A stretch of 64,000 nt of DNA, taken from assembly GCA_016125185.1 (NCBI GenBank), contig WGMG01000006.1, positions 496,001 through 560,000 of the forward strand, given 5' to 3'. Positions 38,354 to 60,779 of this stretch are shown here, in pieces. The notes beneath the pieces are model-generated. The model made no database searches. It had not been told where the DNA came from and saw only the letters and a program-made list of their open reading frames with translations. Within the stretch, counting starts at the first letter, position 1. Every line of letters begins with the position of its first letter. The translations under genes were made by a program, and so were the position numbers. This DNA comes from Armatimonadota bacterium (GTDB lineage Bacteria; Armatimonadota; Fimbriimonadia; Fimbriimonadales; Fimbriimonadaceae).

Positions 38354-39457
38354 TTACTTTCCGGTCAAGGCTTTGAAAACGGCTTCGAAAGCGGGTTTCG
38401 GCTTGTAGCCCTTGTCGAACAACAAAGCCGCCCCGCGCTTGCCCTGGGTTGAATCGGGAATCCAACTATGCCCATCGGTCATCCCCCAAAGCTGGATGCC
38501 TTCGCAGTTCTTGTAGCTGAGGCCCATCTTCACAAACGCTTCGTAGGAGGCCGCCTGTTGCTTCAGGTCGTCGGGGTTGGCCGGAATCTGACCGTAGCTG
38601 GGATCGTTTCGGGCCGCCTTTTCGATGGGAACCGAAAGGTCGAGTTCGGTCATCATGAACTTCAGATTGCGGTTTCGAATCTCGTCGAGCACACCATAGA
38701 ACTTATCGCCTGGTTGTGGAACCTCCACCGCCCAACGGTGGAATTGAAGGCCGATGCCGTCGATCGGCACATTTTTCGACTTCAAAAAGTCGACCATCTT
38801 CAGCATGTTCTCGGTCTTCGCTCCGCCGGTTTCCACACTGTAGTCGTTGTAGTACAGGTGGCACTTTGGATCAGCTTCGTGGGCAAATTGAAAGGCGTAG
38901 ACCAGGAAATCGGTGCCCAATTTGCGATACCAGAACGAGTCACGCAGGTTGAACGGGCGCGTGTTCGGCGCGTCGTCAATGGCTTCGTTGACCACGTCCC
39001 ACATGGCGATTTTGCCCTTGTAGCGCCCCACCACGGTTGTGATGTAGTCGTGCAGAATCTTCTTCGCCTGTTCGGGCGTGATGTCCTTCTCCATTTGCAT
39101 CAGCCAGCGGGGAATGGTGTAGCCACGGTCGCTGGCGTACACCAGCACATGGCCTCGAACCTTTAGCTTGTTGGCCTTCGCCCAGTCGATCAGGTAGTCG
39201 GGCTTGGAGAAGTCAATCTCGTCCAGACCCTTCCACATTGCCGGAGGCTTCAGGTCGTTCTCGGGCTCGATCATCGTAAAGTGGTCGAGAATCGACTGGC
39301 GGTACTGGCCGTCATCGATATTGTTCTTGACCCAGTCGCTCTGGACCGCGACTCCAAAATTGAGTCTATTCTTCTCGGCGAGGGGACGTAAATGATCCTC
39401 ACCGGGGCCGGCATTGGCCATTAGCATTGCCACCACAACATAGCAGGCTCGCGTCAT
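38354..39457 (-). CDS. GH10 endo-1,4-beta-xylanase
   Basis: The 367-residue protein has a short signal-like N-terminus (to about 17) and a full GH10 barrel. The acid/base Glu158 is in WDVVNEAID and the nucleophile Glu271 in MMTELDLSV. NFGVAVQSD, MIEPENDLKP and LWGMTDGHSW complete the family picture. It cuts xylan backbone linkages. The usual RGHTLVWH strand reads RGHVLVYASDRG here, losing the conserved Trp-His, which could alter the -1 site. It is followed by a lectin-like gene in the same operon and lies near GH115 and GH52 genes. TATAGT lies 11 nt before the ATG. Confidence 0.93.
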   Translation of the reverse strand: MTRACYVVVAMLMANAGPGEDHLRPLAEKNRLNFGVAVQSDWVKNNIDDGQYRQSILDHFTMIEPENDLKPPAMWKGLDEIDFSKPDYLIDWAKANKLKVRGHVLVYASDRGYTIPRWLMQMEKDITPEQAKKILHDYITTVVGRYKGKIAMWDVVNEAIDDAPNTRPFNLRDSFWYRKLGTDFLVYAFQFAHEADPKCHLYYNDYSVETGGAKTENMLKMVDFLKSKNVPIDGIGLQFHRWAVEVPQPGDKFYGVLDEIRNRNLKFMMTELDLSVPIEKAARNDPSYGQIPANPDDLKQQAASYEAFVKMGLSYKNCEGIQLWGMTDGHSWIPDSTQGKRGAALLFDKGYKPKPAFEAVFKALTGK

Positions 39458-41870: not shown

Positions 41871-44711
41871 TTATGAGCCGCTCGCCCGAATGAACGTACT
41901 CTCCGGTGGACCGAAGTAGCTCGGCTTCAGTCCGCCGGTGTCCACGACGATCTTTTGCAAAACCACGCCAGGGTCGACGCCCCAAAACCGAATCTTGTGC
42001 CTCCCTGGCTTTACCAAGGCGAAAGGAATCGTCTTGATGATGGCGTTCTGCGCCACCGACGCTTCCCAACTCGGCGTGAAATACACGTACTTCTCGTGCA
42101 TGTTCACCTCGACCGGCTCGCCGTCGTCGAGTGAGACGGCGAACCGCAGGCCCGAACCCGGCTTCAACAGTTGCGTAGGTGACAAGATGGTTTGAATCTG
42201 GATCGGTCCGCTTGAGAACAGATAAATTGGGTATTCCAAAAAGACTTGATCCTTCGTCGGTATCAGCGGCGCGGCGGTTGTAGGAACCAAAGCGACGCCC
42301 GAGTCGGTTCGGCTCAAGCCGGGAAGCTCGGCAAAGCGCACCTTTCCGTTGTCGGAATGGCCTTTGAAATGGTTGGCCTCGATGGACACATAACCGTCTC
42401 CCTCGACAAAGCCATCGACGACCGTATTGGGATAGGCGAGCAATGGTCGCACAGGCACGGAAAGTTGGAAAGACGAACCGTCCGAACCCATGATCGTAAT
42501 CGACCCGGAGGTGGCGGTTTTAGGAACCCGGATCCAGTTGGCGGAGACATAAATCCGCTTGTCGTGGCTTAATTCACCCTCGGATGAACTCAAGCTTAGC
42601 CAAGGATTAGCGGTGGCGGTGAACGTCAGCTTGCCCAACCCCTTATTGAATAGGTCGAAATAAACATCTCCCGACGAATAGGCGCTGAGGAGTGGCAGGA
42701 CGCCTTCCGCGCCGCCTTCAGGAGCCATACCCATCGCGGGCCGATCCTTTGGAGTGACCCGTTCAACCGCAGGCGGGGTGTCTTTGTCCGGTTGTTGCCA
42801 ACTGGTGTATCCGATGTGCGTCTGGTCCATCATGTGGTCCCATTTCCCATCGTGGATCGTGTGATATTGCCGCTGGAGGTCGCGATCTTTCTGGAACAAA
42901 CCACCGACGATATTGGCGGCAATATTCGCCGAAACCCGCCCCTGCTTCGCCCAAAGGTGGTTCAGACCGGCCGCGTAATAAAGCAGATTGAGGTTGGCGC
43001 TCGCCTCGACCGGATAGCCGACCAACTGGAAGTACGCGTCGCGATACTCCTGGGGAAGAAGGTTCTGAACGGCCTGCGACTGCTTGGCCAGGCTCTCCCA
43101 ATCGTCTGCCACCCGCTCCGCCTCGCGGTAGTTCTCCAGGCTGTAAGTTGAAGGGGATAGAAGCTCCGGCTTGCGCCGACCGTTGAACTTCGTGTACTTC
43201 TCGATCAGGTCGGCGATCGAAGGCGAATGCTCGTCGCCAAACTCTCGTCGAACCCAGTTCTCGGCATATTTCCCCAGGGTCGCCGCCGTCCAGCGGTCGG
43301 GGTCCCAGCCCATGCGAATGAAGAACTCGGTCGGGAATTCGTTCGGCTTGATGTCACCGACGTTGGCGATCCATATTCGATCTGCCTTCCATTCGTACGC
43401 CATGTGCATCTGCTCCCAGATTCGCGGCAGGGGACTGGTATCCACCCATTTGTAGTTGCGAGGCCCACCCACATAGTCGAAGTGGTAATACACCCCCGCC
43501 CCGCCGGAGCGCTTTCGCTCCTCGGGCGTTGGTAACCGTCGAATGTTGCCCCAGTTGTCGTCGGCCCAAAGCAGGGTGACGTCGTCCGGCACCCGCATGC
43601 CCTTGTCGTAGTAGTTCTGGACCTCCTTGTACAGGCACCAAAGCTGAGGAACCTTGGTGACGTCCGGGTTCACTTCCTTGGCCAGGATTCGACGCTGGGC
43701 GGCCACGATCTTCTCCAGCAAGCCGATGTTTTCGTCCTCCGACATCGGCGTGTCGATCTTGCCGCGCATGGCGATGGTCGTGATGCTCTCGTACGGCTTG
43801 TTGCGCCGCACGCCATCGGCCCAAAACTTCTCAAGTTCGTCCGGGTTCTTGAGGTAGTTCCACTGGTCGGCGGTGTAGCCAAGTCGGTTCCATTCCTTGT
43901 CGGCCCGCATCATCGGCTCCACGTGCGAGGTGCCCATCACGATGCCGTATTCGTCGGCCATCTTGGGGTTCAGTGGGTCGTCTTCGTTGAAGCAGTTGTT
44001 CCACATGGCAGGCCAAAGATAGTTGGCTCGCAGGCGCAAAAGAAGCTCGAATACGTGGACGTAGAACTCGTGTTTATAGTTGCCAAAGTTCTTGTAGACC
44101 CAGTTGCTGAGGCACGGCGCTTCGTCGTTGATGAAAATGCCGCGATACTTCACTTTCGGCGATTTCTGCACGTATCGACCGGGAGTGACGGCTAGTCGGG
44201 CATGCTTTTTGACCGGCACATCGGCCCACCAGTACCACGGGGAAACTCCGGCTTGCTCGGATAGCTCGTAGGCTCCATAGATGGTGCCCCGCTTGTCGCT
44301 CCCGGCGATGACGACCGCCTTTTCGACGCCCCTCATCGGGTGCTCGACGGTTTGAACCACGAACGACTCCCACGTGCCCTTCACCCCGTGAACATCGAGC
44401 TTGTGGTCTCGAACCAATTTGTCGACGAGCGGACACTTGCCGATGGTTCCCAGGATGATCGCGACCTTGCCACTTCCGTTGATCCTCGGTCTGTGGCCGG
44501 TCACGCGCTCGATGTCGTCGCGCAGATCTCCCGCAACCCGCTTAACGCCCGCCCAGTCTTCGTCCGCGACCAGGATCGGCACTGCGCCGACTGGACCCGC
44601 GATCTCGATTCCACCGGTCTCTCGCACGAAGGTTGGCGTCATGAACTGCACTTCTTCGCCAAAGGCGGCGGCCACGCAAGCAATGGGTAGGAGGAGCAGA
44701 AGAATTTTCAT
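41871..44711 (-). CDS. GH115 xylan alpha-1,2-glucuronidase
   Basis: The 946-residue protein has a signal peptide (MKILLLLLPIACVAAAFG) and the GH115 plan. An N-terminal domain carries VVIAGSDKRGTIYGAYELSEQAGVSPWYWWADVP. A barrel has YRGIFINDEAPCLSNWV, NYLWPAMWNNCFNEDDPLNPKMADEYGIVMGTSHVEPM and LLWADDNWGNIRRLPTPEE. A helical domain and a C-terminal beta domain follow (IRFWGVDPGVVLQKIVVDTGG). GH115 enzymes strip (methyl)glucuronic acid from xylan chains, including internal units. Its ATG overlaps the TGA of the upstream transporter gene by four bases, tying release of glucuronate to its uptake. Confidence 0.92.
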   Translation of the reverse strand: MKILLLLLPIACVAAAFGEEVQFMTPTFVRETGGIEIAGPVGAVPILVADEDWAGVKRVAGDLRDDIERVTGHRPRINGSGKVAIILGTIGKCPLVDKLVRDHKLDVHGVKGTWESFVVQTVEHPMRGVEKAVVIAGSDKRGTIYGAYELSEQAGVSPWYWWADVPVKKHARLAVTPGRYVQKSPKVKYRGIFINDEAPCLSNWVYKNFGNYKHEFYVHVFELLLRLRANYLWPAMWNNCFNEDDPLNPKMADEYGIVMGTSHVEPMMRADKEWNRLGYTADQWNYLKNPDELEKFWADGVRRNKPYESITTIAMRGKIDTPMSEDENIGLLEKIVAAQRRILAKEVNPDVTKVPQLWCLYKEVQNYYDKGMRVPDDVTLLWADDNWGNIRRLPTPEERKRSGGAGVYYHFDYVGGPRNYKWVDTSPLPRIWEQMHMAYEWKADRIWIANVGDIKPNEFPTEFFIRMGWDPDRWTAATLGKYAENWVRREFGDEHSPSIADLIEKYTKFNGRRKPELLSPSTYSLENYREAERVADDWESLAKQSQAVQNLLPQEYRDAYFQLVGYPVEASANLNLLYYAAGLNHLWAKQGRVSANIAANIVGGLFQKDRDLQRQYHTIHDGKWDHMMDQTHIGYTSWQQPDKDTPPAVERVTPKDRPAMGMAPEGGAEGVLPLLSAYSSGDVYFDLFNKGLGKLTFTATANPWLSLSSSEGELSHDKRIYVSANWIRVPKTATSGSITIMGSDGSSFQLSVPVRPLLAYPNTVVDGFVEGDGYVSIEANHFKGHSDNGKVRFAELPGLSRTDSGVALVPTTAAPLIPTKDQVFLEYPIYLFSSGPIQIQTILSPTQLLKPGSGLRFAVSLDDGEPVEVNMHEKYVYFTPSWEASVAQNAIIKTIPFALVKPGRHKIRFWGVDPGVVLQKIVVDTGGLKPSYFGPPESTFIRASGS

Positions 44712-46342
44712 GGCTTGGGCGGGATCGTGGTGGCGAGTACCTGATCGACGGTTGGGCCCTCGTAATGCGCTGTCTTGGCCCCTTTGGGATCGACGATCGG
44801 GCGCAATTCGCGGTCAAATTTGATCAGTTCGGGCTTAGGCTTGCCGTCTGGACCTGCCCAAACGTACCACTTCGCATCCATCCAACCCACCTTGGCGTTT
44901 GGACCGACGCTCGGTTGGCCATTGGACTTCAATTGGGTCACGCGCTTCTGCAAATAGTCGTCCAGCGAAGCGTAAGGCGGACGGTTGAGAAGGTAGGTCG
45001 TGGCAAAGAACAGTGTCAGCATTGCCACCGCTCCAGCCACGATCGCTGGCAGTGGAACCCGCTTCTTGGGTTGTGTGGGGTCCACGGTCGGCAGGATCAA
45101 GTGAATGCATAGCAGGCCGAAGAAGTAGAGCGTGCCCGCCATGATGAACGGCAAGGTGTATGAACTGGTTTTCTCGACCCATACGCCGATGATCACCTGC
45201 ATGAGCGCCGCACCGACCGCGCCGAACGCGGTCATCACACCGACCGTCGCCGCGACTGCCTTGCGAGGCATCGTATCCGAAGCGAGGGTGAATAGGTTGC
45301 AACTCCATCCTTGGTGGGCACCCGCCGCGATGGCAATGATGGTCAGGGCGACGTAGATCGTTGGGATTCCGGCGATGTCCGGCTTGCCAACCATGAGGCC
45401 GACGAGCATGACCGGCGTCACACACAGGGCGCTCGCCAGCATGGCGACTTTGCGCGAGAAGCCAACCGATTTGCCCGCCTTGATGAGCCTCGATGAAAGC
45501 CAACCGCCTAAGACCGAGCCGATGTCGGCGATGAGATAGACGAAGACCACCGCCCCCGCCATGAACTCTGCGGAGAGCTTGAACTGGTCGACCAGGAACT
45601 TGGGGAGCCAGGCAAGATAGAACCACCAAGGCGCGTCCGAGAAGAATTTGCCCATCGCCACCGCGTACAGCGGGCGCATGCCAAATAGCTCTTGGTACGA
45701 AACCTTCTCGCCCTCCGGCTCGGCGTCGCCCTCGATATGCTCGAGCTCTTGCGGACTGAGCGACGGGTGATCATGAGGCGAGGCGTACAGCTTCGCCCAG
45801 AACAACAGCCAGACCGCGCCGATGCTCCCAAGAATCAGAAAAGCGGCTCGCCAGCCGAACTGCTTGGCCACATAGACGGCCAAAAAGGGAGCCAGAACCG
45901 CGCCAATATTCGTTCCCGAGTTGAACCAGCCGGTGGCCAACGCGCGCTCCTTCTTAGGGAACCACTCGGCCGTGGTTTTGACGGAAGCAGGGAAGTTGGC
46001 GGACTCGCCGACGCCCAGCATAAACCGAGCGGCGATGAAACCCATGAACCCGCCCACCAGCGCATGTGCCGCCGAAGCGATTGTCCAAACAAAGAAGCCC
46101 CAGCCGAGCCCCTTCTTCGTCCCGATGCGGTCGATCAGGCGTCCGACGAACACCATTCCGAAGCCGTACGCCAGCAGGAAGCTAGCGTTGATGAGGGCAA
46201 TATCGACGGGCCCGATCCGCAGTTCGTTGTCAAAGAAGGGAACCAAGAGTGCGAAAAGCTGGCGGTCCAAATAGTTGATGGTCGTCGCCGCGAACAGAAG
46301 TCCGCAAATAGTCCACCGCACCCGCCCTATCGCCTTCACCAT
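44708..46342 (-). CDS. MFS transporter, ACS/hexuronate (ExuT-like) type
   Basis: The 544-residue protein has twelve helices with the anion:cation symporter signature: INYLDRQLFALLVPFFDNEL, GRLIDRIGTKKGLGWGFFVWTIASAAHAL, GVGESANFPASVKTTAEWFPKKERALATGWFNSGTNIGAVLAP. Relatives (ExuT, GudP) import hexuronates with protons, matching the GH115 gene it is coupled to. Oddly, after the last helix near 450 there is an extra tail of about 95 residues (PPYASLDDYLQKRVTQLKSNGQP... PGP-poor, hydrophilic) not usual for the family. It starts 50 bases from operator O1 and is divergent from lacI. Confidence 0.88.
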   Translation of the reverse strand: MVKAIGRVRWTICGLLFAATTINYLDRQLFALLVPFFDNELRIGPVDIALINASFLLAYGFGMVFVGRLIDRIGTKKGLGWGFFVWTIASAAHALVGGFMGFIAARFMLGVGESANFPASVKTTAEWFPKKERALATGWFNSGTNIGAVLAPFLAVYVAKQFGWRAAFLILGSIGAVWLLFWAKLYASPHDHPSLSPQELEHIEGDAEPEGEKVSYQELFGMRPLYAVAMGKFFSDAPWWFYLAWLPKFLVDQFKLSAEFMAGAVVFVYLIADIGSVLGGWLSSRLIKAGKSVGFSRKVAMLASALCVTPVMLVGLMVGKPDIAGIPTIYVALTIIAIAAGAHQGWSCNLFTLASDTMPRKAVAATVGVMTAFGAVGAALMQVIIGVWVEKTSSYTLPFIMAGTLYFFGLLCIHLILPTVDPTQPKKRVPLPAIVAGAVAMLTLFFATTYLLNRPPYASLDDYLQKRVTQLKSNGQPSVGPNAKVGWMDAKWYVWAGPDGKPKPELIKFDRELRPIVDPKGAKTAHYEGPTVDQVLATTIPPKP

Positions 46343-46480: not shown

Positions 46481-47512
46481 ATGAAAACAACGATGCGACA
46501 GGTGGCCGAGGCGGCCGGAGTCTCTGCGATGGCGGTCTCGTACGTCCTGCACGGCACGGGCAAGAACGTGCGTGTAAGCAAGGAAACCGCCGAGAAAATT
46601 CGCCGGGTTGCGGCGGAGCTTCGCTACCAGCCAAACAACGTGGCCCGCAGTCTGCGAAACCGACAGACGCACATGATCGGCGTCGTTTTTCAGCACTTCA
46701 GCCGCCTCAGCGATGCCAACCCGTACTATCCGCAGTTGCTGAACGGCGTGATGTCGGCCCTGTTTCCGCAGAAGTACACGCTCGCCCTGTGCCCCGAACT
46801 CGCGATGGGCACCGCCGAAGAAGCGATCTTCGATGGTCGTTTTGATGGAATCCTCTGGGCCCGTCCCGACTTCAACGAGGCATCCATCGAGAAGTTCCGC
46901 CACGCCTCGACGCCGCTTGTTCTGATGCACGCTCCCCCCGGAACCGCCGAAGGCGTTCCGACCTTCTGCGCTGACAACGAAGGCGCTTTGCGGCTGGTCA
47001 CCCGCCACCTTCGCGATCTCAAACACGAAAACATCTGCTTCGTGGTGGACGAACTCAGCGAGCCGACCGCCGAGGGTAAGGCGCGCATCTCGGCTTTTCT
47101 GTCGGCGGTCGAAGAAGAAGGAATTTGGGGCGAAGTATTCGTTTGGGACGAGAATCCGCGGACCTTCAAGGAGTATCTGCAGGCCCATCCGAGAATCACG
47201 GCGATGGCGTGCTTCAGCGATACCATCGCGGGAACCGTTCTTCAAACCTGCAAGGTGCTGGACATCCAGGTTCCGTGGGACCTGTCCGTCATAGGTTTTG
47301 ACTCTTCGTCATTTTGCGAGCGCACGCATCCGCGCCTGACCTCCGTGCATCAGCCGGTGGAGTTGATCGCCTTCGAAGCGGTGACGCACCTGCTGTCGAT
47401 GGTCCGCGATCGAGCAAACGGGATCGAACTTGAGCCCGGCGTCCCCACGACCTACAAGTGCGGCCTGGACCTGCGCGACTCGACGACGACCCCCTCAAAG
47501 AAGAGGTTTTGA
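46481..47512 (+). CDS. LacI-family transcriptional regulator of the xylan locus
   Basis: The 343-residue protein has an N-terminal HTH and hinge (TMRQVAEAAGVSAMAVSYVLHGTGKNVRVSKETAEKIRRVAAELRYQPNNVARSLRNRQT) and a periplasmic-binding-protein-like sensor (60-335): IGVVFQHFSR, DGILWARPDF, HLRDLKHENICFVVDE, VIGFDSSSFCERTHPRLTSVHQP. It probably binds a xylo-oligosaccharide or glucuronate signal (inference). It sits between the divergent transporter-GH115 operon and the GH52 gene 28 bases downstream, and two matching 16-bp operators flank its start. DNA-binding residues look intact. Confidence 0.92.
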   Translation: MKTTMRQVAEAAGVSAMAVSYVLHGTGKNVRVSKETAEKIRRVAAELRYQPNNVARSLRNRQTHMIGVVFQHFSRLSDANPYYPQLLNGVMSALFPQKYTLALCPELAMGTAEEAIFDGRFDGILWARPDFNEASIEKFRHASTPLVLMHAPPGTAEGVPTFCADNEGALRLVTRHLRDLKHENICFVVDELSEPTAEGKARISAFLSAVEEEGIWGEVFVWDENPRTFKEYLQAHPRITAMACFSDTIAGTVLQTCKVLDIQVPWDLSVIGFDSSSFCERTHPRLTSVHQPVELIAFEAVTHLLSMVRDRANGIELEPGVPTTYKCGLDLRDSTTTPSKKRF

Positions 47513-47540: not shown

Positions 47541-49714
<2,174 letters not shown>

Positions 49715-49718
<4 letters not shown>

Positions 49719-52700
49719 CCCTTTCCCCTTGGTCTCGCCGGAAGGGGAATCTCAAGGCCTGAACTCGAGAACATCCAGTCCGTGAAGAAGAAGCCATCAA
49801 AGATGTCGGGCCAGACAGCTTTCATCGGCGAGTATCCGAGCGGACCCGCGATCTGCTGATTGTGAAACGGCGATGTCGCCGGTAAGGCGTGAAAGTCCAC
49901 GAAGGCGTAAGGGTGCCCCACGTTGTGAAGCCACCCCTCGATGGAGTCGTCGCTGGCGGTATCGAGGGCTTGGTCGCCGAAGAACGGGTTGCCGATCCAG
50001 CCGTGGTGGGCCACGAATGCGATGGTGTACATTCGCTTGCCAAGGGCCTCATGCGCCCAGTCTCCCATATCGCGCAGGTTCTTGTAGCTGAGCGTCGGAA
50101 GCTGGGTATCGATCTGTGACGGATTCCGCATCAGGTGGAAACTCGCGGCCCACACGATGATCTTTCGGTTCTTGTAGGGACCGTTCGCCAACCAAACAAG
50201 ATTCTCGCCCATGCGCCGGTCGCGCGGGTTGTTGGAATCGACACCCGAGGTGTTGCCCTTGATCATCGCTAAAATGGCTGCGTTCCCTAAATAGCGAATC
50301 ATTCTTTCGGTTTTGGTTGCTCCCACCTTGGCTTCGAACGCCACCCCATTCTCCGAGATCAGCTTACTAAGAGATTCGAACGTTTGTTTGGATTCCGAAG
50401 CAGTTCCGCCGTCGGAATTAAGGGCGGTGTAGCCACAAGCTATCGACAGCGCATGGCGAAGATCGGCGGCTAGCGGCATACCTGCATCGCTAAAGAACTT
50501 TGCCACCGATGCTTCAAATCCATTGGAGGCTTGGCCAGAAAATTGCGGATCGGCGCCGGACATCTGCAAAGGATTTTTGGTCTTCCAAGTGGAGGCGGCG
50601 TACTCGAACAACTGCCGAACCGGCGGCGTCTTGCCCCAGATCGGAAAGATTCCTTGGTCGATCGCCTCGGTCCAGCTCCTGCCGTCGGCTAGCGTCTGAT
50701 TCATCTGATCGCAGTCGTACATTCCCGATTCCCAAACCAGCACGTCGAATCCGCACTTTTCGTGCAGGTACCGAATCAGCCGGGCTTTGGCCAAGAACGT
50801 CGCTCCGTCCTGGTGACTCGGCTCGCCTAACTGGACGATCTGGGCGTCGCCGATCGCGTGCCGAATGGATTGGAGATCGGAGAAATCTGTGTCACCAATT
50901 TCAATTGACCGGACCGGGTGCACCGCCTGAGCGACGGTCGCCGGAACCTTCGCAGGCTTGGCCGGTTCGCCAGCTTTCAACCGAATATCGGGCAATACCG
51001 ATGACGCCGACGGAAAGCGCATCGAGTTCTTCTCCCACCATTCCACCCACCACCTCGCATCCTGCGCGCCGAAGTAGTCGATGTGGTTGGGCATGCAGAT
51101 TGCGAAGTACCCGATGTCGTACTTCATCGAATCGCCATAGGCTCGGATTGCGGCGACCAGATAGGGGATAGCGCGAATTCGGTCGGCTCGGTTCAGGGTG
51201 TTGCAAAGTTTCTCCCGCTTCTTGGCATCGAGAAATTCGCCTTTCGAGGCGCTCTCGACAAACAACTTTGCTACCTCCTCGAAGGACATTTCGGCGTCTG
51301 CTTTTTCCGCTACCGAGGTTGATTGGATTGTCACCTCTGGCATGGGAAAGTCTTTCAGCGCCGGGTAGTCCTTAGCGTGCTGGGTCCACCAATCTCGCCA
51401 CCATTGGCGCGTGTGCAAAGCGTCGTACGGAATTCCGGTCAGGGGCGAAAGTCCGAAGTAATCCAACCAGTATTTCCAGCCGTCAGGTCCCAGGATGATG
51501 AGCCGAATAAACTCGGGGATTAGCCGGTCGTCCTTACGGTCGTTGGTGCTAGGTGTCAGGAGGCTGATATGCTCGCCGATGGGTCCGTCTGGGGCGGCGG
51601 CGAGTTTTTGGAATTGGTCGAGAATCGCGTCTTTCGCCCAGTCCGACGATTGGCGAGTGAGGATCATGACTGCCTTGCTGTACTTATCGCTGTCCTTGGG
51701 GTTCGCCAACACGGGAAGAATCTCGTCGCGGACCACCGTCGAGTCCGCGCCAAGCTTGGCGATGAAATCGTAGACCGTCGTCAAAGGTTGATCGCTTTCC
51801 AGAGCCGCCTTCCAGAGCTTTTGGAAGACCTCGTTGCGTGTTTGGAGATCGATAGATTCAGGAATCGAATGTCCGTAGATCGAAGAAAGGAGGGCGTCGG
51901 CTTTGTGCAATGCGTCCTGCGGATTTGACTTCACAAGCGCGTCGAAGAACAACTTCATGACCAATGCGTTGAGGCCGGCTTTGGATAAATCGTTGTGGTC
52001 CCTTGCCCACGCTAACGCCTCGGTAGAGGATACAAAGCAGGTGAGGGATTGCTGGCTGAGCGAAGTCAGAGCCCGTCCCCGGACGCCGAGGTCGGCGTCG
52101 CCAAAGGCGAGTTCGAGGAAGGGAAGCTGGTTTGCGAGCTTCTGCGACTGGATATTGGTGAGAAGAGACTGTTTCGACAAGGGAACAAGTTTCGACCAGC
52201 CGTCACTCAAAGCCTCCGTCGGTGACTTGGTCAGGTTCATCATGAGCTGATTGGAGGCTCGAAGTTGTTCTTGCGTAGGTTCAGGAGCCATCGTCGAGGA
52301 TTCGACCGCCTGGCGGTTTTCGGCGTACCAAGCCTTCCACCAATCCGCGTTAGTATCGCCCTCCCAAGTCACCGAGGTCACCTGCGGAAGCAGACGCGAG
52401 CAGATGCCCCGCGTCACCGTAGGGGGCGCGGTGTCGAGGATGCTTACTAATGGCTCGATAATTCGCGGATCGTGAATGTTTTGATAGTAGAGTTCGAAGT
52501 AGATCATGCTGCGTTGCAGGCGCTCGGGGTGCTCGCAGGTGAATCGAACCATGCCCAGCATCACATCGTTGGTCCAAGGCGACTTCATCGAATAGAGAAC
52601 CCGCAGAGCCTGCTCTTCGTTTTTGCCCTCGTACCAACCGGGCACGAGATTCGCCTTGGCGTATCGTTCAGAAACCCCGACTGTATCCATAAGGTCGTCG

Positions 52701-53311
52701 AAGTCTCGCAAGCTGCTTGGATCGACCTGCCGCTTTGCTTCTTCCGCGCTGAGCCTTTGGTAGATCGTGTCGCGTTGGTCATCGGTCCACATCTTGGGGA
52801 ATTCACGCATACCCATCGAATGGGAATAAAACGAAACCGACCAGTCCAGGTCACGTCCAGATTGCTTGTGCAGTCGGCGATACGCTTCGGCCGCCAATCC
52901 GGTCATCGCTTCCTGGCGAGACTTTCCGGCGTTAGCGCGGCTCCAAGCTTGAGCAGCCCGAAAGTCGTAAGATGATGGATTCGCCATCTCGCGCATTAGC
53001 GTTTCCAGGCAAGTCGAGACCACTTCGCTTTCGCCATCGTGCAGGCCTAAATCCAGGCTGGGCATCAGGCCGAATCGGGAGCTCCGAGAGAAGTACACGA
53101 CCAGTTCGTTCTTTCGCTTCAGACTCATTTTTGGCCAAGCGGCGCGGAGAAGTCGGTCCATCTGGCCATTGCTCAGGTTTCCCGTCTCATTCTCGATCGT
53201 CTGCCAAACTGGCTTGCCTGCGACCAGTTTTTGCACCAAGTCGTTGGAAGCTTGTCCAAACACCGTACAGGCGAGGGGAAGCAAAAGAGTGGTCATCGAG
53301 AGGCGTTGCAT
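49715..53311 (-). CDS. Secreted 1198-aa protein: HEAT-like repeats + erythromycin-esterase-like domain
   Basis: A signal peptide (MQRLSMTTLLLPLACTVFG) leads to about 800 residues of helical, HEAT-like repeats (QALRVLYSMKSPWTNDVMLGMVRFTCEHPERLQRSMIYFELYY, LPFLELAFGDADLGVRGRALTSLSQQSL). The last third resembles the erythromycin esterase superfamily: IVQLGEPSHQDGATFLAKARLIRYLHEKCGFDVLVWESGMYDC, then WAASFHLMRNP and IAFVAHHGWIGNPFF. That superfamily (EreA/B, succinoglycan-linked relatives) uses a Glu/His-based hydrolase site, and the GE.SH motif is present. The substrate here is unknown. It is divergent from blaI/blaR1-like genes with two BlaI boxes in its promoter, so it is probably induced by their signal. 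The start may be 53311 or 53296. Confidence 0.72.
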
Positions 53312-53317
53312 TGGTCT

Positions 53318-53333
53318 GACTACGATTGTAGTC
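53318..53333. promoter_or_regulatory. BlaI/MecI-type operator A
   Basis: GACTAC-GATT-GTAGTC, a perfect 6-bp inverted repeat with the TAC...GTA core of BlaI/MecI boxes. On the minus strand it contains TACAAT, a -10 candidate for the esterase-like gene whose ATG is 6 bases away. Confidence 0.75.
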
Positions 53334-53351: not shown

Positions 53352-53367
53352 GACTACAATTGTAGGC
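53352..53367. promoter_or_regulatory. BlaI/MecI-type operator B
   Basis: GACTAC-AATT-GTAGGC, differing from a perfect palindrome at one base. On the plus strand it contains TACAAT, a -10 candidate for the blaI-like gene. Its centre lies 34 bp from that of operator A, about three helical turns. Confidence 0.75.
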
Positions 53368-53388
53368 AGAAGGGAAAAAATTTCAAAA

Positions 53389-53763
53389 ATGAGACTTGGC
53401 GACTCCGAACTTCAGCTTCTCAAATACATTCAAGACAGCGGCCCGTCTTCGGTCCGACAAGTGGCGGATGAGTACGGAGAAGCGAAGGGTTTGGCCCGTA
53501 CAACCGTCCAAACCGTGATGGAGCGCCTGCGCAAAAAGGGCTTCCTTGAGCGCGAGGAGCGCGAGGGATCCTTTGTGTACTCCGCTCGTCAAGGCAAGGA
53601 ACGGACTTTGCACGACTCCATCGATTCGTTTGTCAAGAACACGCTCGGCGGGTCGATTGCACCGATCGCATCGTACTTTGCCAACGCCAAGAACCTCACG
53701 CCCGAGGAGGTCGAGATGCTCCGCTCGGTGGTTGAAAAACTTGGTGAGGATGGAAAATCATGA
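53389..53763 (+). CDS. BlaI/MecI-family repressor
   Basis: The 124-residue protein is a typical BlaI-type winged helix: LGDSELQLLKYIQDSGPSSVRQVADEYGEAKGLARTTVQTVMERLRKKGFLEREEREGSFVYSARQGKER, then a C-terminal dimerisation helix region with the usual protease-exposed stretch. BlaI repressors are cleaved or released after BlaR1-type proteases are activated. Its stop overlaps the ATG of the M56 gene by four bases, as in blaI-blaR operons. The two palindromes just upstream fit its DNA site. AGAAGGG precedes the start. Confidence 0.92.
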   Translation: MRLGDSELQLLKYIQDSGPSSVRQVADEYGEAKGLARTTVQTVMERLRKKGFLEREEREGSFVYSARQGKERTLHDSIDSFVKNTLGGSIAPIASYFANAKNLTPEEVEMLRSVVEKLGEDGKS

Positions 53764-55295
53764 TCGAATTCACGATCAGCCTCCTATCCATTGCCGCGAC
53801 GATGGGGATCTTTACGGCTATTTTGGCGCTCGCCCTTCGAAAGTTTGCCAATGTTCCACCTCGCCAAGTAGCGGGAATATGGCTTTTCTTCGCGTTCGCG
53901 CCGGTCATCTTGTTGGTCCTCGGCCTAGCAGGACAGCAATCGGGACGCTTTGATTTGGTTACCACAGCCCAATCGGTGGTGCTGAGGGGGGCCAGTGTCA
54001 CCTTAGTGGATAATTCGCTTTTCAGGCTGTCAGATGGCAATTGGCAACCAATGCCGGGCGTTATGATATTGCTTCGTGTCTTCTTCGCCATATGGGCGGT
54101 CGGCGCCTTCGCGCTTCTGATCATCCGTGGCTACCAGCTTTTTCTGGCCCAACAGTTTTCGGTGTGGGCCAACGATTTAGAAGATGAACGGGTGCGGGAC
54201 GAAGCCAAATACATGGGCTGGAGTTTTGGCATGGCGACTCCTCAGATTCGAGAATCGGTATTGGTTCGTTCTCCGTTGGTGGTCGGTGTCCGTAAGTTCA
54301 CGCTTTTGATGCCGGCTGGCATGTCCCGAGACCTCACTGACGACGAGCTTCGGGCTATCCTCGCCCATGAGTTTTCGCACATCGCCAAGGCCGACACCCG
54401 CGTCCTTGCTCTGCTGATCATCAACGAATGCCTCTTTTGGTTCAGCCCGTTCACTTGGCTGGTCCAACGGAATTGGGCCACGTACCGAGAACTCGACGCG
54501 GACCGCGAAGCGATCCTCCGTTCTTCGATCGAACCGAAGCGGTTCGCCAATCTCCTCGTTCGGATCGTGACCTCATCCAAAACGCCGTGGCTTCAGACCG
54601 CGATTGGCGCGACAAGGGATTTCAAAGCTCTCAAAAGGCGGATCCTCAACATGAGTCGACCAACGACCGACTTTCCTTCGTCGCGTGGTTTCGTGTTCCT
54701 CTCCTGTTTCATGGGTACTTGGCTTGGAATGTCAGTGTCGTTGAGACCGACATTCGAGCGGATCACCGACTCCAATCTCGTCATCGACGGTGGATTTGAA
54801 AGCGGGTTGGAGACCTGGCGACCCGGCACGATGCCGGAGGAATCCGACACGGGCGTGACCTACAAACTCGACACCGAGGTCTACCATTCTGGCCACGCGA
54901 GCCTCAAATACACCAAACAGCGCCCCACCTATTTCCCGATTCAAGTGATGCGGCCGCAATTGATGCCGTACCGCATGACCAAACGAGTCGAAACGACCTG
55001 CTGGATGAAGGCTCGGAATGCGGGCAAGGCTACGATCTGCCTCGTGTTTCATCGCAAAGGTCATGAGTCGGACTACCATTGGGCGGTCTATGCATCGGGG
55101 CCAAAACCCGATGTCGGTGTCACGCATGACTGGAAGCAGTACCAAAGCGTGGTCGCCGTTCCGGAGGACACAACCTCGGTAGAAATGCTAGTGCAGATGT
55201 ACGGGCCGGGAGAGGCCTGGTTCGACGATGTATCCCTCAAGTTCGTCGCTGACGAGACACCGATCGTCGAGGCTGTCGATATGACCAAGGGCTAG
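53760..55295 (+). CDS. BlaR1-like M56 metalloprotease with a CBM-like sensor domain
   Basis: The 511-residue protein has N-terminal helices (about 5-25, 38-57, 101-122), a cytoplasmic M56 zinc-protease domain with HEFSH at 203-207 and a distal ELDADREAIL, and a fourth helix near 325-345. A periplasmic domain follows from about 350: NLVIDGGFESGLETWRPG, SGHASLKYTKQRP, TCWMKARNAGKATICLVFHRKG, and GEAWFDDVSLKFV. That is the pattern of CBM4/9-like jelly rolls, not of a penicillin-binding domain, whose SxxK/KTG motifs are absent. It likely senses a glycan or cell-wall fragment and triggers BlaI removal (inference). It is translationally coupled to blaI. Confidence 0.85.
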   Translation: MIEFTISLLSIAATMGIFTAILALALRKFANVPPRQVAGIWLFFAFAPVILLVLGLAGQQSGRFDLVTTAQSVVLRGASVTLVDNSLFRLSDGNWQPMPGVMILLRVFFAIWAVGAFALLIIRGYQLFLAQQFSVWANDLEDERVRDEAKYMGWSFGMATPQIRESVLVRSPLVVGVRKFTLLMPAGMSRDLTDDELRAILAHEFSHIAKADTRVLALLIINECLFWFSPFTWLVQRNWATYRELDADREAILRSSIEPKRFANLLVRIVTSSKTPWLQTAIGATRDFKALKRRILNMSRPTTDFPSSRGFVFLSCFMGTWLGMSVSLRPTFERITDSNLVIDGGFESGLETWRPGTMPEESDTGVTYKLDTEVYHSGHASLKYTKQRPTYFPIQVMRPQLMPYRMTKRVETTCWMKARNAGKATICLVFHRKGHESDYHWAVYASGPKPDVGVTHDWKQYQSVVAVPEDTTSVEMLVQMYGPGEAWFDDVSLKFVADETPIVEAVDMTKG

Positions 55296-55317
55296 AGATA
55301 ACTCTCTAGCCCTTGGT
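55284..55317. terminator. Bidirectional terminator at the end of the blaR1-like gene
   Basis: ACCAAGGGCTAGAG (55284-55297) and CTCTAGCCCTTGGT (55304-55317) form a perfect 14-bp stem; the gene's last codons and TAG stop lie inside it. It separates convergent genes. T-runs are weak, with CGCTTTAG on the plus side. Confidence 0.65.
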
Positions 55318-55322
55318 CCGCT

Positions 55323-57302
55323 TTAGTTCTTCTTGACGAAGACCCAGGTGTAGTCAGCGTGGCCCGTGGCCTGAGCCAGTCCGTACAGGTTGCCGTTGTC
55401 GTCCATGAATTGGGCCGTTCTCATCGTCCACTGACCAGGAGTGCCAATCAGATTCTGGAGCGTTGAGAGGTTGTTGCCTAACTTGACGAAGGCGCTCAGA
55501 GTGCCGCCCGAGTCTCGCTGGTAACCGCATCCGTTTCCGTTGGAGTCATAGGCGGATAGGGTCGCGTCGGCAATTCCAGAGGTGAATCCGATCTCCGTCT
55601 GGGTCGTCGAACCCGCCGCCCAATAGCCGGGATGCGAGCCGTTGCCGTTAGAATTGATATGGCCGCCGTAGGCGATTCCGCCTGGTGTCACACCCACCAT
55701 GTAGGCTTGATTCGTGCCGCCGCCAGGCGTCATTTCGACGGGATCGGAGGTCGTCGTCGCCCACTTCACCCACTTGCTTCCGATCGTGCCGAAGATTTCA
55801 CCGGCATTATCGACAAAGTTAGCCGTTGGGTTACCAGAGAAAGCGCCCAGAGACAGCGCGGCCGGGTCAGCATCTTTGTCAGTCCAGTAGCAGGCGACTT
55901 GGGTCGAGTTGGTCAGGTAATAACCGACGATTAGACCCGAATCGTTCACGGAGTAGGCCAGTCCCGTGAAGAAGTTCTGTGGCAGATTCAGAATCTTCGG
56001 GGCGACCGTGGGACCCGAGTAGTAGATTGGCTTCCGAACCGACGAAGGGCTCGACACTTCACCAACCATTTCGCCTGTCGCGTTGACGCTATAGAGTTGA
56101 ACATAGTCGTCGGTGGTTAATCGCTGAAGTTCGGTTGGGCTGGTAGGCGAAGTCCACAGAACCGGTCGTCGAGGGCTACTTCCGTCAACCGCTACAAAGC
56201 CGAGAATCTTGCCATCGTGACTAACGCCCGTGATGACGAGGTCCGCGTCGTTGTTGGAGACCGGCGTGAGCGTGGACGGAGTCGCGAACGTCCCCGCCGT
56301 TGTGGCGGTCGTTGCCGTAGTCGACGTTGTTGCTGTTGTGGCAGTTGTAGCCGTAGTAGCGGTTGTTCCCGTCGTATTGCCGCCCGGTCGCGTGAGATCG
56401 GCGGTCGATGGGTCGGTCACTGTGTCCGAAGTGCTGTCGGGGTACGAGATCACCAGCTTTCCGTCCGCGCCTAAAACGGCGTTCGCGGCTCCGCTGGGAG
56501 TTTGCAACTGCATCGTGAAGAGGCCATCGCTAGGCGTAAACGAACCCGTGCCCGTCCAGCTTTCCGGCTGAATCGAGACGTGGCCCGTCATGGTATCGAA
56601 CGGATTGCCGGAGACGTTGGTGAGGGTAAAGGTCGAGGCTGGCGTCGTGATGGTCACCTGGCCGGACGAGTTTTGAGTATTGGACAAGGCCAAGTCGATG
56701 TTGATCTGCACATTCGTGGTCGGAAGAGTGAGCGAGCCTTGCATCGTATTCGCGCCCGAGCTATCCTGGTAAGTCAGTGTCAGCGAACCATTCATCGGAA
56801 TCTTTCCGCCCGTCACGTTCGCCGTCGCCGAGATCGTCTGCGGATAGGTCGAGTAGTTGGTGTCGAACGAGCTTTGACCGACCATCGTGATCGTCATATT
56901 GCCCGCGGCCTGGGTGCCGATGGAATCGGTGAAGTAGCTGATCGTCATCGTATTTCCGGCCGTCCCGACGCTGTAGTACAGACCCAAGAAGGGAAGATAG
57001 TCCAATGCAGCCGCGCGGCTGGCCTGATTCGGATCGGTGACCTTCTGTTTCTTTGTATTGAAGAGCGCCTGGGCGAACGCGGTGGTCTTGCTGAGGCCGC
57101 TACCCGTCGGCGCGGTGCGCTTGAGGGTCACAAACCCAACGTTGAGCCCACCCTGAAGCGACTGGTGACTCGCCACCGAGTTTGCGTAAACCGCGTCCTT
57201 ATCGGCGCTGGCGAATTCCGTACCGCCTCCACCGCATCCAAAGATGCCCACGGCGAGGATGATGATTGCGGCCACACCGGCCCAAATACGACTTGTCTTC
57301 AT
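55323..57302 (-). CDS. Large HAF-repeat lipoprotein with Thr/Ala linker
   Basis: The 659-residue protein has a lipoprotein signal (MKTSRIWAGVAAIIILAVGIFGC, then GGGG). A beta-rich N-terminal domain follows (to about 305), then a low-complexity linker of TTATTATT repeats near 312-345, and a HAF-repeat domain (LVITGVSHDGKILGFVAVDGS, YSVNATGEMVGEVSSPS, YSVNDSGLIVGYYLTNS, AYDSNGNGCGYQRDSGG, FMDDNGNLYGLAQATG). The C-terminal half is related to the 363-residue lipoprotein at 35966. It is probably surface-anchored; role unknown. The TTA linker is encoded by GTTGTNGC-type triplet repeats that could change length by slippage. Confidence 0.72.
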   Translation of the reverse strand: MKTSRIWAGVAAIIILAVGIFGCGGGGTEFASADKDAVYANSVASHQSLQGGLNVGFVTLKRTAPTGSGLSKTTAFAQALFNTKKQKVTDPNQASRAAALDYLPFLGLYYSVGTAGNTMTISYFTDSIGTQAAGNMTITMVGQSSFDTNYSTYPQTISATANVTGGKIPMNGSLTLTYQDSSGANTMQGSLTLPTTNVQINIDLALSNTQNSSGQVTITTPASTFTLTNVSGNPFDTMTGHVSIQPESWTGTGSFTPSDGLFTMQLQTPSGAANAVLGADGKLVISYPDSTSDTVTDPSTADLTRPGGNTTGTTATTATTATTATTSTTATTATTAGTFATPSTLTPVSNNDADLVITGVSHDGKILGFVAVDGSSPRRPVLWTSPTSPTELQRLTTDDYVQLYSVNATGEMVGEVSSPSSVRKPIYYSGPTVAPKILNLPQNFFTGLAYSVNDSGLIVGYYLTNSTQVACYWTDKDADPAALSLGAFSGNPTANFVDNAGEIFGTIGSKWVKWATTTSDPVEMTPGGGTNQAYMVGVTPGGIAYGGHINSNGNGSHPGYWAAGSTTQTEIGFTSGIADATLSAYDSNGNGCGYQRDSGGTLSAFVKLGNNLSTLQNLIGTPGQWTMRTAQFMDDNGNLYGLAQATGHADYTWVFVKKN

Positions 57303-57413
57303 ACTCCTTGAGTCCTTGTTCCAATGATAAAAGGCGGGTGTGACAGCCGCGTGACAAGACCGGTTTCCAAGGCGGGTAACATGCCGCTGACCCTTGAGGG
57401 GGAGTTCGATTCG

Positions 57414-58496
57414 ATGAAGAAGTACTATTTAGTTCTCCTAGGTTGTCTGGCGGTGGGAATCGCCCATGCGCAGGTTCCTGGCGACTTGGCTCAGGCCAAA
57501 AACTACCGCGCGTTCAAGGCGTCCAGCGCCGATCCGACCGGACATAACGCCGACGCCCGCGGGATCGCGCCGGGCCAGACCATCACTGTGGCTGACGTGA
57601 AGGGTGCAGGTGAATTTACGCACCTTTGGATGACCATCGCGGCGCAATCGCCCGACCATCTTCGGCAGTTGGTGATCCGCATGACTTGGGACGACGCGGC
57701 GACGCCCGCCGTCGAGTGCCCGATCGGCGACTTCTTTGCGCAAGGCCCCGGTGAAGCCGCCGAGGGGCGAGGCTATGTCGAGTTTCACAGCGCCCCGGTC
57801 TCCGTCGGCGGACAGTTCGCGCTCAACTGCTACTGGCCGATGCCGTTCAAAAAGCACGCCGTGATCACGGTCACTAACGAGGGCGACAAGCAGGTCAATG
57901 CGTACTACTGGAACTACGACTACCGAATCTACGACCGACCTCAGCGCGACACGTTGTACTTCCACACGCAGTACAAGAACTATTTCCCGGCTCCAGAAGG
58001 AAAGCCACTGACCATCACCGAGGTGAAGGGCCGAGGGCACTATGTTGGGACGGTTGTGCAGGTTCTCGCCAACAGCGATGGCTGGTGGGGTGAGGGCGAT
58101 GACAATTTTTATGTCGATGGCAACATCCAGCCGTCACTATCGGGAACGGGAAGCGAAGACTACTTCTGCGGCGCATGGGATTTCGGCCACACGTTCGAGA
58201 CGCCGTACTTCGGAGTCACCTATTACGACAACCCCAAGAAGGGCGGCGAAAAGAGGGGGATATACAACACGGTCTATCGCTGGCACATCCTCGATCCGGT
58301 TCCATTCACCAAGAGCCTGCTATTCACGCTCGAACACGGTCGCGGTGGCTGGGACGAGAAGCGAAGCCCCTTCACCAACCACTACACCACCGTTGGGCTC
58401 TACTATGTGGACCACGCAGAGCGCGACGGCGAGGCGATCCCTCCTTACTCGAAGCGAATACCGAAGCTGATCCCGCTTCCCGGCGACAAGGGCTAG
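57414..58496 (+). CDS. GH172 (DUF2961) glycoside hydrolase, copy 1
   Basis: The 360-residue protein has a signal peptide (MKKYYLVLLGCLAVGIAHAQ) and the DUF2961 core: GEFTHLWMTIAAQSP, MTWDDAATPAVECPIGDFFA, FALNCYWPMPFKKHAVITVTN, GRGHYVGTVVQVLANSDGWWGEGDDNFYVDG and GTGSEDYFCGAWDF. GH172 members act on alpha-D-arabinofuranosides or D-fructofuranosides. The conserved acidic pair in GEGDDNFYVDG and GTGSEDYF is present. I choose the ATG at 57414 because it gives a proper signal peptide and follows GAGGGGGAG; the longer frame would overlap the divergent gene's promoter. Its stop overlaps the toxin-like gene's by four bases. Confidence 0.88.
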   Translation: MKKYYLVLLGCLAVGIAHAQVPGDLAQAKNYRAFKASSADPTGHNADARGIAPGQTITVADVKGAGEFTHLWMTIAAQSPDHLRQLVIRMTWDDAATPAVECPIGDFFAQGPGEAAEGRGYVEFHSAPVSVGGQFALNCYWPMPFKKHAVITVTNEGDKQVNAYYWNYDYRIYDRPQRDTLYFHTQYKNYFPAPEGKPLTITEVKGRGHYVGTVVQVLANSDGWWGEGDDNFYVDGNIQPSLSGTGSEDYFCGAWDFGHTFETPYFGVTYYDNPKKGGEKRGIYNTVYRWHILDPVPFTKSLLFTLEHGRGGWDEKRSPFTNHYTTVGLYYVDHAERDGEAIPPYSKRIPKLIPLPGDKG

Positions 58497-58840
58497 GAAC
58501 GATTTCGTTTGGGGTGGGGACCTTCGATGACGTAGACCCGCCCCGGCGAACACGACAGAAGGATTTCTAGAATCGCGGGAACGCAGTTGATCTCGTTTTC
58601 GAGAATGTTAGGGTGGATGTCAAGAATAAGAAAGGCAAATGGGTGAGTCGCGACATTCTGCTGATGTTGCAGGTTTTTGTCGACGGTGACAAAGGCTTGG
58701 AAGCCGTTTTCTGAGGCAAGCTTCAGCAACTTTCCATTGATGATGCCGTTCCACCCTAAGTGTGTAACATGGAGTACTTCGTGCCCGGGAAGATGGGCAA
58801 CTAAGTCCTTGTCAAGGTTTTCGTCGAGAAGAATTCTCAA
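58493..58840 (-). CDS. DUF5615 PIN-like toxin component
   Basis: The 115-residue protein begins RILLDENLDKDLVAHLPGHEVLHVTHLGW and has FVTVDKNLQHQQN, the acidic motif set of DUF5615 (Mut7-C/PIN-like) proteins. These pair with DUF433 partners as type II toxin-antitoxin modules with presumed RNase activity. Only a TTG at 58840 supplies the N-terminus expected for the family, and it overlaps the TGA of the antitoxin gene (TTGA). The gene therefore depends on translational coupling, which would keep toxin below antitoxin. It is wedged between two GH172 genes. Confidence 0.78.
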   Translation of the reverse strand: MRILLDENLDKDLVAHLPGHEVLHVTHLGWNGIINGKLLKLASENGFQAFVTVDKNLQHQQNVATHPFAFLILDIHPNILENEINCVPAILEILLSCSPGRVYVIEGPHPKRNRS

Positions 58841-59073: not shown

Positions 59074-59129
59074 GGTCGTAAACACTATTGTAACGTAATC
59101 CCCGGTGATCCCGGGAATTACGTTTCGGC

Positions 59130-60752
59130 TTAGTCCCAAAGGTGCGGATTTTTCCGCCAATCCTGGTCCTTTTCGTAGCCCATCGCTTTCACTCGAGGAC
59201 GCCGTTCGCGGAGCCGAACGGATTCCAGACCCAGGTAGTAGCCGCGCGAAGCGGGGTTTTTGCCGACGCATTCCAGCCGTAGCGTGTACTCGCCGGGATC
59301 GGGCCAGAAGTCCATCAAATGAACTTCTCGATCCGTCGTTTCGGTGGCGTACAGGTCGATGGGGCCGCCGATCTTCACGCCGTTCAGGTACGCCTGGTAG
59401 ATGCCGAAGTCGTACGACGTGCAGGCATTGAGCAACAACCGAAGCGGTTCTTTCTCCTTCACCGTGAACGGGATTTCGAGGAATGCACCGTCCTCCGCCT
59501 TGGGCTGGTAGAGCAGTTGCGAATGATCGAAGAAGTCGAGGTCCTGCGGACCGGCCGATCCCGATCCGTGTTTGGCTGCTGGGTCGGTCGCATAGGCGAT
59601 GATCCGTTCCAGGCTAGGCAACGTTCGCTCCTTGGCATCCGGGGCGCGGGCGGTAAAGGTCGACTCGCCGGTCTGATACCAAAACGCCACGCTGGAGAAG
59701 TCGTCCTCACGCTCGTTCCAACTCATCGACTTATGGTCGGGGTTCTCGTCGGGAGGTATCCAGCCGAAATGCTCGATGGTGACCTTGATGCCCTTTTGAA
59801 AGACGATCGGATCATTGATGTGCCACCGATAGGCGCTGGTGTGGCCGCCCACGATGCCCCATTGGTCGAAGTACGGTGTCCCGAAGTACGGCGTCGAATT
59901 ACGCTTGAGGCCCCACGCGGCGAGGAAGTAGTCCTCCGTGCCGGTGCCCCAAATCGAGGCTGACTTTTCGCCGTCGATGTAGATCTTCTCGTCGCCTTCA
60001 CCGAACCAGCTTGGGCTCCTGGTCCGCACCGAGAGGACGGTGCCGACGTAGTGACCCTTGCCGGTCGTTTCCAAAATCGTATAGTCCTTGCCATGCTCAG
60101 CCGGATATTCCTGGCGGTATTGCGCATGGAAGAGCGGCGTGTCTTTCGGCAGGCTCGTCCGTTTGATCCAGTCGATGTTGTAGTAAAGCAGGTTAATGTT
60201 CTTCGTGCTCTGGTTGACGATCTCCACTCGTGCCGACTTGTAAAACGGCATGGGCCAGAAGCAGTTGTAGGCATCGCCGTCATCGACGATCACGGGCAAG
60301 CTGTTGACCTCCGATCGCCGACCAAATGCGTTGGCGAAGAAGTCGCCCACCGGGGCTTCAACCTGGGGCTTTTTCGCTCCATCGAAGTAGATGCGAAGAA
60401 GCATTTCCTGATGATTGGCCGAGCCTTGCGGCGCCCAATTCTGCTTTTCGGGACCGAGGAAGGTCAGCCACATGTGGGTGATGACTCCCGGACCCTGGCG
60501 ATCCATCAGGACGTGGGTTTGGCCCGGGCCGACTCGAAAGTTGTCGTAGTTGCTATGCTCCAGCAGGTCGCCCGTGGGCGGAGCCTTGGGGTCATATTTG
60601 CCATCTTTGCCCGCGCGGAAGGTCGAAGACTCGCGCATGCTTCGCCCGTCCTGGGGTTGCATCAGATTTCCAAGCGGTCCCGATCCGGTTTGCGCCCACC
60701 CCAAGCAACCCACCGCGATCAGGAATCCCGCCATTGAGATTCGTCCGATCAT
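59130..60752 (-). CDS. GH172 (DUF2961) glycoside hydrolase, copy 2
   Basis: The 540-residue protein has a signal peptide (MIGRISMAGFLIAVGCLGWAQ) and a DUF2961 barrel (about 60-375). It has THMWLTFLGPEKQNW, YFDGAKKPQVEAPVGDFFANAFG, AYNCFWPMPFYKSARVEIVNQS, GKGHYVGTVLSVRTRSPSWFGEGDEKIYIDG and GTGTEDYFLAAWG. It also has an extra C-terminal jelly roll of about 130 residues (LLLNACTSYDFGIYQAYLNGVKIG) missing from copy 1. The two are related but clearly divergent, so probably differ in substrate. It is divergent from the ABC sugar permease gene. Start at the second in-frame ATG, which begins the signal peptide. Confidence 0.88.
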   Translation of the reverse strand: MIGRISMAGFLIAVGCLGWAQTGSGPLGNLMQPQDGRSMRESSTFRAGKDGKYDPKAPPTGDLLEHSNYDNFRVGPGQTHVLMDRQGPGVITHMWLTFLGPEKQNWAPQGSANHQEMLLRIYFDGAKKPQVEAPVGDFFANAFGRRSEVNSLPVIVDDGDAYNCFWPMPFYKSARVEIVNQSTKNINLLYYNIDWIKRTSLPKDTPLFHAQYRQEYPAEHGKDYTILETTGKGHYVGTVLSVRTRSPSWFGEGDEKIYIDGEKSASIWGTGTEDYFLAAWGLKRNSTPYFGTPYFDQWGIVGGHTSAYRWHINDPIVFQKGIKVTIEHFGWIPPDENPDHKSMSWNEREDDFSSVAFWYQTGESTFTARAPDAKERTLPSLERIIAYATDPAAKHGSGSAGPQDLDFFDHSQLLYQPKAEDGAFLEIPFTVKEKEPLRLLLNACTSYDFGIYQAYLNGVKIGGPIDLYATETTDREVHLMDFWPDPGEYTLRLECVGKNPASRGYYLGLESVRLRERRPRVKAMGYEKDQDWRKNPHLWD

Positions 60753-60779
60753 GGCCCATTCTTGCATAGAATCGGTGGG

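Follow-up and report, generated by a model that had tools for sequence, protein, structure and literature searches.

An M56 protease paired with BlaI and bearing a carbohydrate-binding-module-like tail: a candidate glycan sensor in a xylan-type locus

To our knowledge, BlaR1 and BlaI have been studied almost exclusively as a beta-lactam switch. The gene pair described here shares with BlaR1/MecR1 and BlaI/MecI the HExxH motif of an M56 protease, a similar pattern of hydrophobic segments, a blaI gene directly upstream and palindromes in the blaI promoter region. It differs in the sensor, which is class D beta-lactamase-like in BlaR1/MecR1, whereas here we find a beta-sandwich resembling carbohydrate-binding modules of the CBM_4_9 type, encoded in a xylan-type locus. 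Judged by its sequence, the protein is thus a member of the M56 family that lacks the defining sensor feature of BlaR1/MecR1. The other described system that comes close is that of the Clostridium thermocellum RsgI proteins with C-terminal CBMs, which likewise unite an outside carbohydrate-binding domain and an inside regulator in one membrane protein (PMC4711584); in RsgI6, an enzyme domain (GH10) has already become a binding sensor (PMC4711584). We found no description of a CBM-bearing M56 protein in a library of mostly open papers, which is weak evidence of novelty.

Coordinates below refer to the window, that is, the whole stretch of 64,000 nucleotides that was analysed. The gene pair and the elements within it are:

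53389..53763, + strand: blaI-type repressor gene, 124 aa (Penicillinase_R 8.3e-25; matches to BlaI 1sd4 and MecI 1okr)
53760..55295, + strand: M56 protease gene with C-terminal CBM_4_9-like domain, 511 aa, ATG start (open reading frame and Pfam)
54366..54380, + strand: HEFSH zinc motif, residues 203-207 (sequence reading)
54489-54491, + strand: distal Glu244 of the M56 protease (sequence reading)
54774..55256, + strand: CBM_4_9-like domain, residues 339-499 (Pfam, AF2 model and structure matches)
55283..55318, no strand: terminator-like stem of 16 pairs over the M56 stop codon, between convergent genes (stem search)

The original prediction of a HEFSH protease coupled to blaI is borne out on both counts. 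Peptidase_M56 (Pfam) matches residues 9-296, a span that includes HEFSH, with E 9.4e-28 and 97.7 bits against a cut-off of 31, and the start of its gene overlaps the last 4 bases of the blaI gene directly upstream, whose product reaches 87.8 bits for Penicillinase_R against a cut-off of 22.6. HEFSH and E244 are both invariant in the ortholog from a second Fimbriimonas (see below), and phmmer matches the protein to BlaR1 structure 8exs at 1.6e-9. Hydropathy marks hydrophobic segments at residues 8-26, 37-55, 103-121 and 310-328, with a weaker one at 215-233 beside HEFSH, a pattern consistent with the BlaR1 topology, in which the C-terminus would lie outside. No site in the aligned loop of the M56 protein clearly corresponds to the autocleavage site of S. 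aureus BlaR1, Ser283-Phe284 (PMC9834060); at the S. aureus BlaI cleavage site, the Phe aligns with a Phe in the local BlaI, where a Tyr precedes it. Note that the stem search returned 3 matches where shuffles led us to expect 3.0, the stem over the M56 stop codon being by far the longest.

The outer part of the protein had been read as a CBM4/9 jelly roll, and both Pfam and an all-beta AF2 model of residues 339-499 (pLDDT 75.7, pTM 0.74) support this reading, with the domain beginning at about residue 339, slightly earlier than the span of 350-511 first proposed. Scanned at full length, the protein reaches 24.1 bits for CBM_4_9 (PF02018), slightly under the cut-off of 25.9; the tail searched alone reaches 27.2 bits, above it, and the ortholog 27.1 bits, likewise above. 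The AF2 tail model was built from three sequences and its first 24 residues are of low quality. Its best structural matches are carbohydrate-binding modules, namely a CBM70 hyaluronan module, CBM16, CBM4-2 and CBM22, alongside other proteins of the same fold (Z 10-13); for the CBM70, CBM16 and CBM4-2 chains, 123-132 residues superpose with Z 11-12 and rmsd 2.3-2.8. Phage tail proteins and MAM domains are also among the matches, and the modelled fold is no proof of function; non-sugar roles use the same beta-sandwich. At the sequence level, 26 of the 27 positions that are invariant among the 14 other modules of the CBM subfamily are kept in the M56 tail, several of them aromatic. Only two CBM_4_9 matches occur in the whole 4.5-Mb genome. 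A motif scan of the tail found no K[TS]G, no [SY]xN and no ordered SxxK/[SY]xN/K[TS]G set; the predicted absence of KTG therefore stands, while that of SxxK fails to the letter, as residues 446-449 read SGPK, an isolated string without the other two motifs.

How unusual is such a tail? Among ~100 M56 proteins from 60 related genomes, nearly all of which adjoin a blaI-type gene, we find carboxypeptidase-regulatory-like repeats (15/100), STN domains (7/100), a PQQ propeller, coiled coils, Gly-rich and HEAT-like tails, and others. A CBM_4_9 tail is present in two, this protein and its ortholog, so that a varied tail is normal in the group and a CBM tail rare; a survey covering 291 genomes of the phylum showed close members of the CBM subfamily in these two proteins and, as a contig-edge fragment, in G077. 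Tail turnover is the rule among the M56 proteins of related genomes. The suggestion that a penicillin sensor had been replaced finds no support here: none of the ~100 proteins carries penicillin-sensor motifs in the motif scan, hence there is no sign that the lineage ever had such a sensor, and we dropped the idea of an ancestral one. In a tree of M56 proteins, the ortholog is the only close relative (support 1.0); deeper nodes nearby have support of 0.21-0.34, with one at 0.91, and because they are weak we draw no history of tail exchange. This genome holds seven M56 matches above the Pfam cut-off. Within the genus, the number of M56 matches per genome ranges from 0 to 13, which suggests that M56 genes may be gained and lost rapidly.

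The neighbourhood of the pair contains the following genes:

38357..39457, - strand: GH10 (xylanase family) gene (PF00331 3.3e-84)
41874..44711, - strand: GH115 (xylan alpha-glucuronidase family) gene (PF15979 7.7e-155)
44711..46342, - strand: MFS transporter gene (PF07690 1.2e-56), syntenic in G009
46481..47509, + strand: LacI-type regulator gene (PF00356 1.1e-12), syntenic in G009
47541..49715, + strand: GH52 (beta-xylosidase family) gene (PF03512 2.2e-156), syntenic in G009
57324..58496, + strand: DUF2961 (GH172) gene (PF11175 6.4e-74), syntenic in G009
59130..60767, - strand: second DUF2961 (GH172) gene (PF11175 1.2e-84), syntenic in G009

DUF2961 corresponds to GH172 (PMC10115798, PMC8605356), and a gene for a sugar ABC binding protein also lies within the locus. 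Taken together, the gene families point to xylan as the likely substrate, and GH115 to glucuronoxylan. As a control we considered ~98 other M56 loci with flanks of 3-5 kb: homologs of GH52, GH10 and GH115 occur in none of them, and GH172 in two. The order MFS-LacI-GH52-blaI-M56-lipoprotein-GH172-GH172 is kept in G009, the second Fimbriimonas, which has genes for a KDPG aldolase and a PfkB kinase between GH52 and blaI, where this genome has a HEAT/esterase gene; their annotation would fit hexuronate use. The putative lipoprotein (55323-57302, - strand) is convergent with the M56 gene, keeps its position in G009, contains a Thr/Ala (TTATTATTATT) stretch and has no Pfam match. Further along, two small adjoining ORFs (58493-59271, - strand) look by eye like a DUF5615/DUF433 toxin-antitoxin-like pair.

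The ortholog itself (G009, L106; CAMFIS010000012.1, from an uncultured Fimbriimonas metagenome-assembled genome) is 50-51% identical and syntenic, and it has the architecture M56-CBM-alpha/beta-hydrolase. It differs from the protein studied here in the ~240 residues that follow the CBM (Abhydrolase_2 1.5e-3), as well as in the gene upstream of blaI. A profile of this hydrolase part built with planctomycete relatives matches carboxylesterase structure 1auo at 1.4e-9, and Ser, Asp and His of the GxSxG type are conserved in position. A search of this genome turned up no close homolog of the hydrolase. The simplest history we infer from these two genomes is that a ready-made CBM-hydrolase was fused to an M56 protein and that the hydrolase was subsequently lost here.

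Such ready-made enzymes exist in Planctomycetes, where a profile detects the same CBM subfamily in four genomes (E 1e-42 to 1e-48), and a second search yielded further cases. There, the module and the same type of hydrolase form free proteins of ~420 residues with apparent signal peptides (L192-L195, L222-L230), which are 37-38% identical to the CBM-hydrolase part of the ortholog and differ from it in lacking the M56 fusion. A blaI-M56 pair lies within 5 kb of the CBM-hydrolase gene in 8 of the 11 loci with full flanks. With 11-27 M56 genes in each of these genomes, chance neighbours should account for only a few per cent per locus; note, though, that the eight loci come from one clade, so they are not independent and represent one or two events. 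The adjoining M56 proteins carry other tails. The planctomycete blaI genes have paired A+T-rich palindromes, some of the form CTAAN4TTAG, and these occur at blaI only, no operator-like site having been found before the CBM-hydrolase genes.

Related modules turn up in other settings as well. One planctomycete protein (L236:2701-6645) combines HEAT repeats and a hydrolase of the G009 type with a Ser/Thr kinase, so that the same outside modules sit on another signalling head. Another planctomycete gene (L107:3334-6576) encodes the same CBM subfamily without M56 or hydrolase and adjoins sigma-factor-like and Ser/Thr-kinase genes. GH51-type arabinofuranosidases with CBM_4_9 lie near blaI-M56 pairs with non-CBM tails in two further loci (L094:828-3131, L066:11339-13648).

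Upstream of blaI, the intergenic region and the gene beyond it contain:

49715..53311, - strand: divergent gene, 1198 aa, with a signal peptide predicted by eye, HEAT-like repeats and an erythromycin-esterase-like domain at residues 850-1159 (PF05139 6.8e-23)
53320..53331, no strand: operator-like palindrome 1, CTACGATTGTAG (pattern search)
53354..53365, no strand: operator-like palindrome 2, CTACAATTGTAG (pattern search)
53359..53386, - strand: sigma-70-like promoter TTGAAA-16-TACAAT toward the divergent gene (10/12 matches; a consensus match only)

The two palindromes lie between blaI and the divergent HEAT/erythromycin-esterase-like gene. They start at 53320 and 53354, a spacing of 34 bp, immediately ahead of blaI, and no other CTACN4GTAG site occurs in the 64-kb window. 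The 19-kb G009 region likewise has only two such sites, at 9798 and 9832, with the same 34-bp spacing and directly in front of blaI. For a longer form of the pattern, allowing one mismatch, we count 4 occurrences in the window against 0.20 expected from shuffles. The second hexamer of the sigma-70-like match falls inside palindrome 2. No CTACN4GTAG site precedes the GH10, GH115, GH52, LacI or GH172 genes, and the xylan genes therefore do not stand out as BlaI targets; LacI may control them. We do not claim a genome-wide BlaI regulon on the basis of the palindrome: counts are near those of a reversed-pattern control, and the one further exact CTACAATTGTAG in the genome (C6:2002772; L051:4773-4784), which lies ~20 bases before a gene whose 256-aa product looks exported, could be a chance match. 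In C. thermocellum, BlaI regulons are described that are small and autoregulated and have sites for four protomers (PMC8457756). The repeats of the divergent gene are related to those of the planctomycete kinase-HEAT-esterase protein mentioned above (E 6e-22). The gene was not found in the G009 genome and, in its full-length form, is present in this genome only among the 37 searched.

We favour glycan sensing as the best reading of the CBM-like tail, for four reasons: the locus is xylan-type and largely syntenic in a second Fimbriimonas; the ortholog and Planctomycetes join the same CBM to a hydrolase, near blaI-M56 pairs; the tail keeps nearly all residues invariant in its subfamily; and the palindrome pair precedes blaI in both species. 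Specifically, we propose, with a probability of roughly 0.6, that the BlaI/M56 pair carries an extracytoplasmic CBM-type sensor for a xylan-type glycan, a module of the kind found in secreted-type CBM-alpha/beta-hydrolases. The sensor would be periplasmic if the host is diderm, as is known for the group. A xylan-type oligo- or polysaccharide would bind the module, the resulting change would reach the zinc protease in the cytosol by way of the last membrane helix, and the protease would cleave BlaI, which would then leave both CTACN4GTAG operators and allow transcription of blaI-M56 and of the divergent HEAT/erythromycin-esterase-like gene. As the glycoside hydrolase genes have no palindrome, the response may be limited to these transcripts. 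The full-length AF2 model is too poor (pLDDT 42.8; few homologs) to reveal how the module is coupled to the membrane helix.

Imagine instead that the domain sensed the cell's own envelope glycans, such as peptidoglycan fragments or lipopolysaccharide sugars, and that the protein were an envelope-stress sensor to which the xylan locus is incidental. With BlaR1-like topology the domain would be periplasmic, a compartment that intact xylan would not reach, and the operator is found at no xylan gene. Moreover, a peptidoglycan fragment acts in the bla system of Bacillus licheniformis (PMC3305447). Against this, the locus and its conserved gene order have a xylan-type character, and the module's relatives are fused to hydrolases, so that we consider the scenario unlikely. 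We also think it improbable that the beta-sandwich recognises another protein or plays a structural role (as a spacer or dimerisation element), with the signal entering through another part of the protein, for example the loop that connects helices 2 and 3. The fold is indeed shared by phage tail proteins and MAM domains, and elsewhere in the clade M56 tails are coiled coils, Gly-rich or HEAT-like and can do without a small ligand. If the module were a pure spacer, however, we would expect it to drift more than it has, considering how well it preserves the residues, several of them aromatic, that are invariant across its enzyme-linked relatives.

Might the module sense nothing at all? The ancestor could have been a membrane-bound CBM-hydrolase under the control of its own BlaI, as in G009, that lost the hydrolase and left the CBM as a remnant. 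The ortholog does have the hydrolase, no close homolog of which was found in this genome, and the gene stops just past the CBM, at the terminator-like stem. Yet the conserved residues have been kept despite an overall identity to the ortholog of only 50-51%, and so have blaI and the operator pair, which makes a mere remnant very unlikely. Finally, M56 and blaI are parts of beta-lactam sensing systems, and one could suspect a true beta-lactam sensor in disguise. With the transpeptidase motifs missing from the tail and from the ~100 relatives, a CBM-like fold in their place, an NCBIfam blaR1 score of 66.4 bits, far below the cut-off of 400, and no beta-lactamase among the window genes examined, this possibility is largely refuted and scarcely credible, and we rejected it.

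If the glycan reading holds, a BlaR-type relay of protease and repressor would serve as a polysaccharide receptor. More broadly, the protein could be a glycan receptor in which a BlaR-type protease bears the binding module of a secreted-type hydrolase (in the sister species, the hydrolase as well), making the BlaI/M56 relay a general platform that recruits its sensors from enzymes active on the same substrate, an idea to which we give somewhat less than even odds. The bla system offers one parallel: its sensor is related to the secreted beta-lactamase, just as the sensor here is related to the part of a secreted-type hydrolase that does the binding. In addition, having many different tails on one type of protease would make it possible to study how outside domains of unrelated kinds act on the same membrane protease, which work on BlaR1 alone leaves open. 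Neither the sigma-I-binding N-terminal domain of RsgI nor a sigI neighbour is found here, the N-terminal part being M56 and the neighbour blaI, and the output differs accordingly: an anti-sigma factor and sigma-I in RsgI, a built-in protease and the BlaI repressor in the present case. In both systems, the sensor gene adjoins that of its transcription factor. The RsgI/sigma-I sensors are closest in logic, a likeness of working rather than of kinship, and the M56 protein described here would be the counterpart of the CBM-bearing RsgI sensors.
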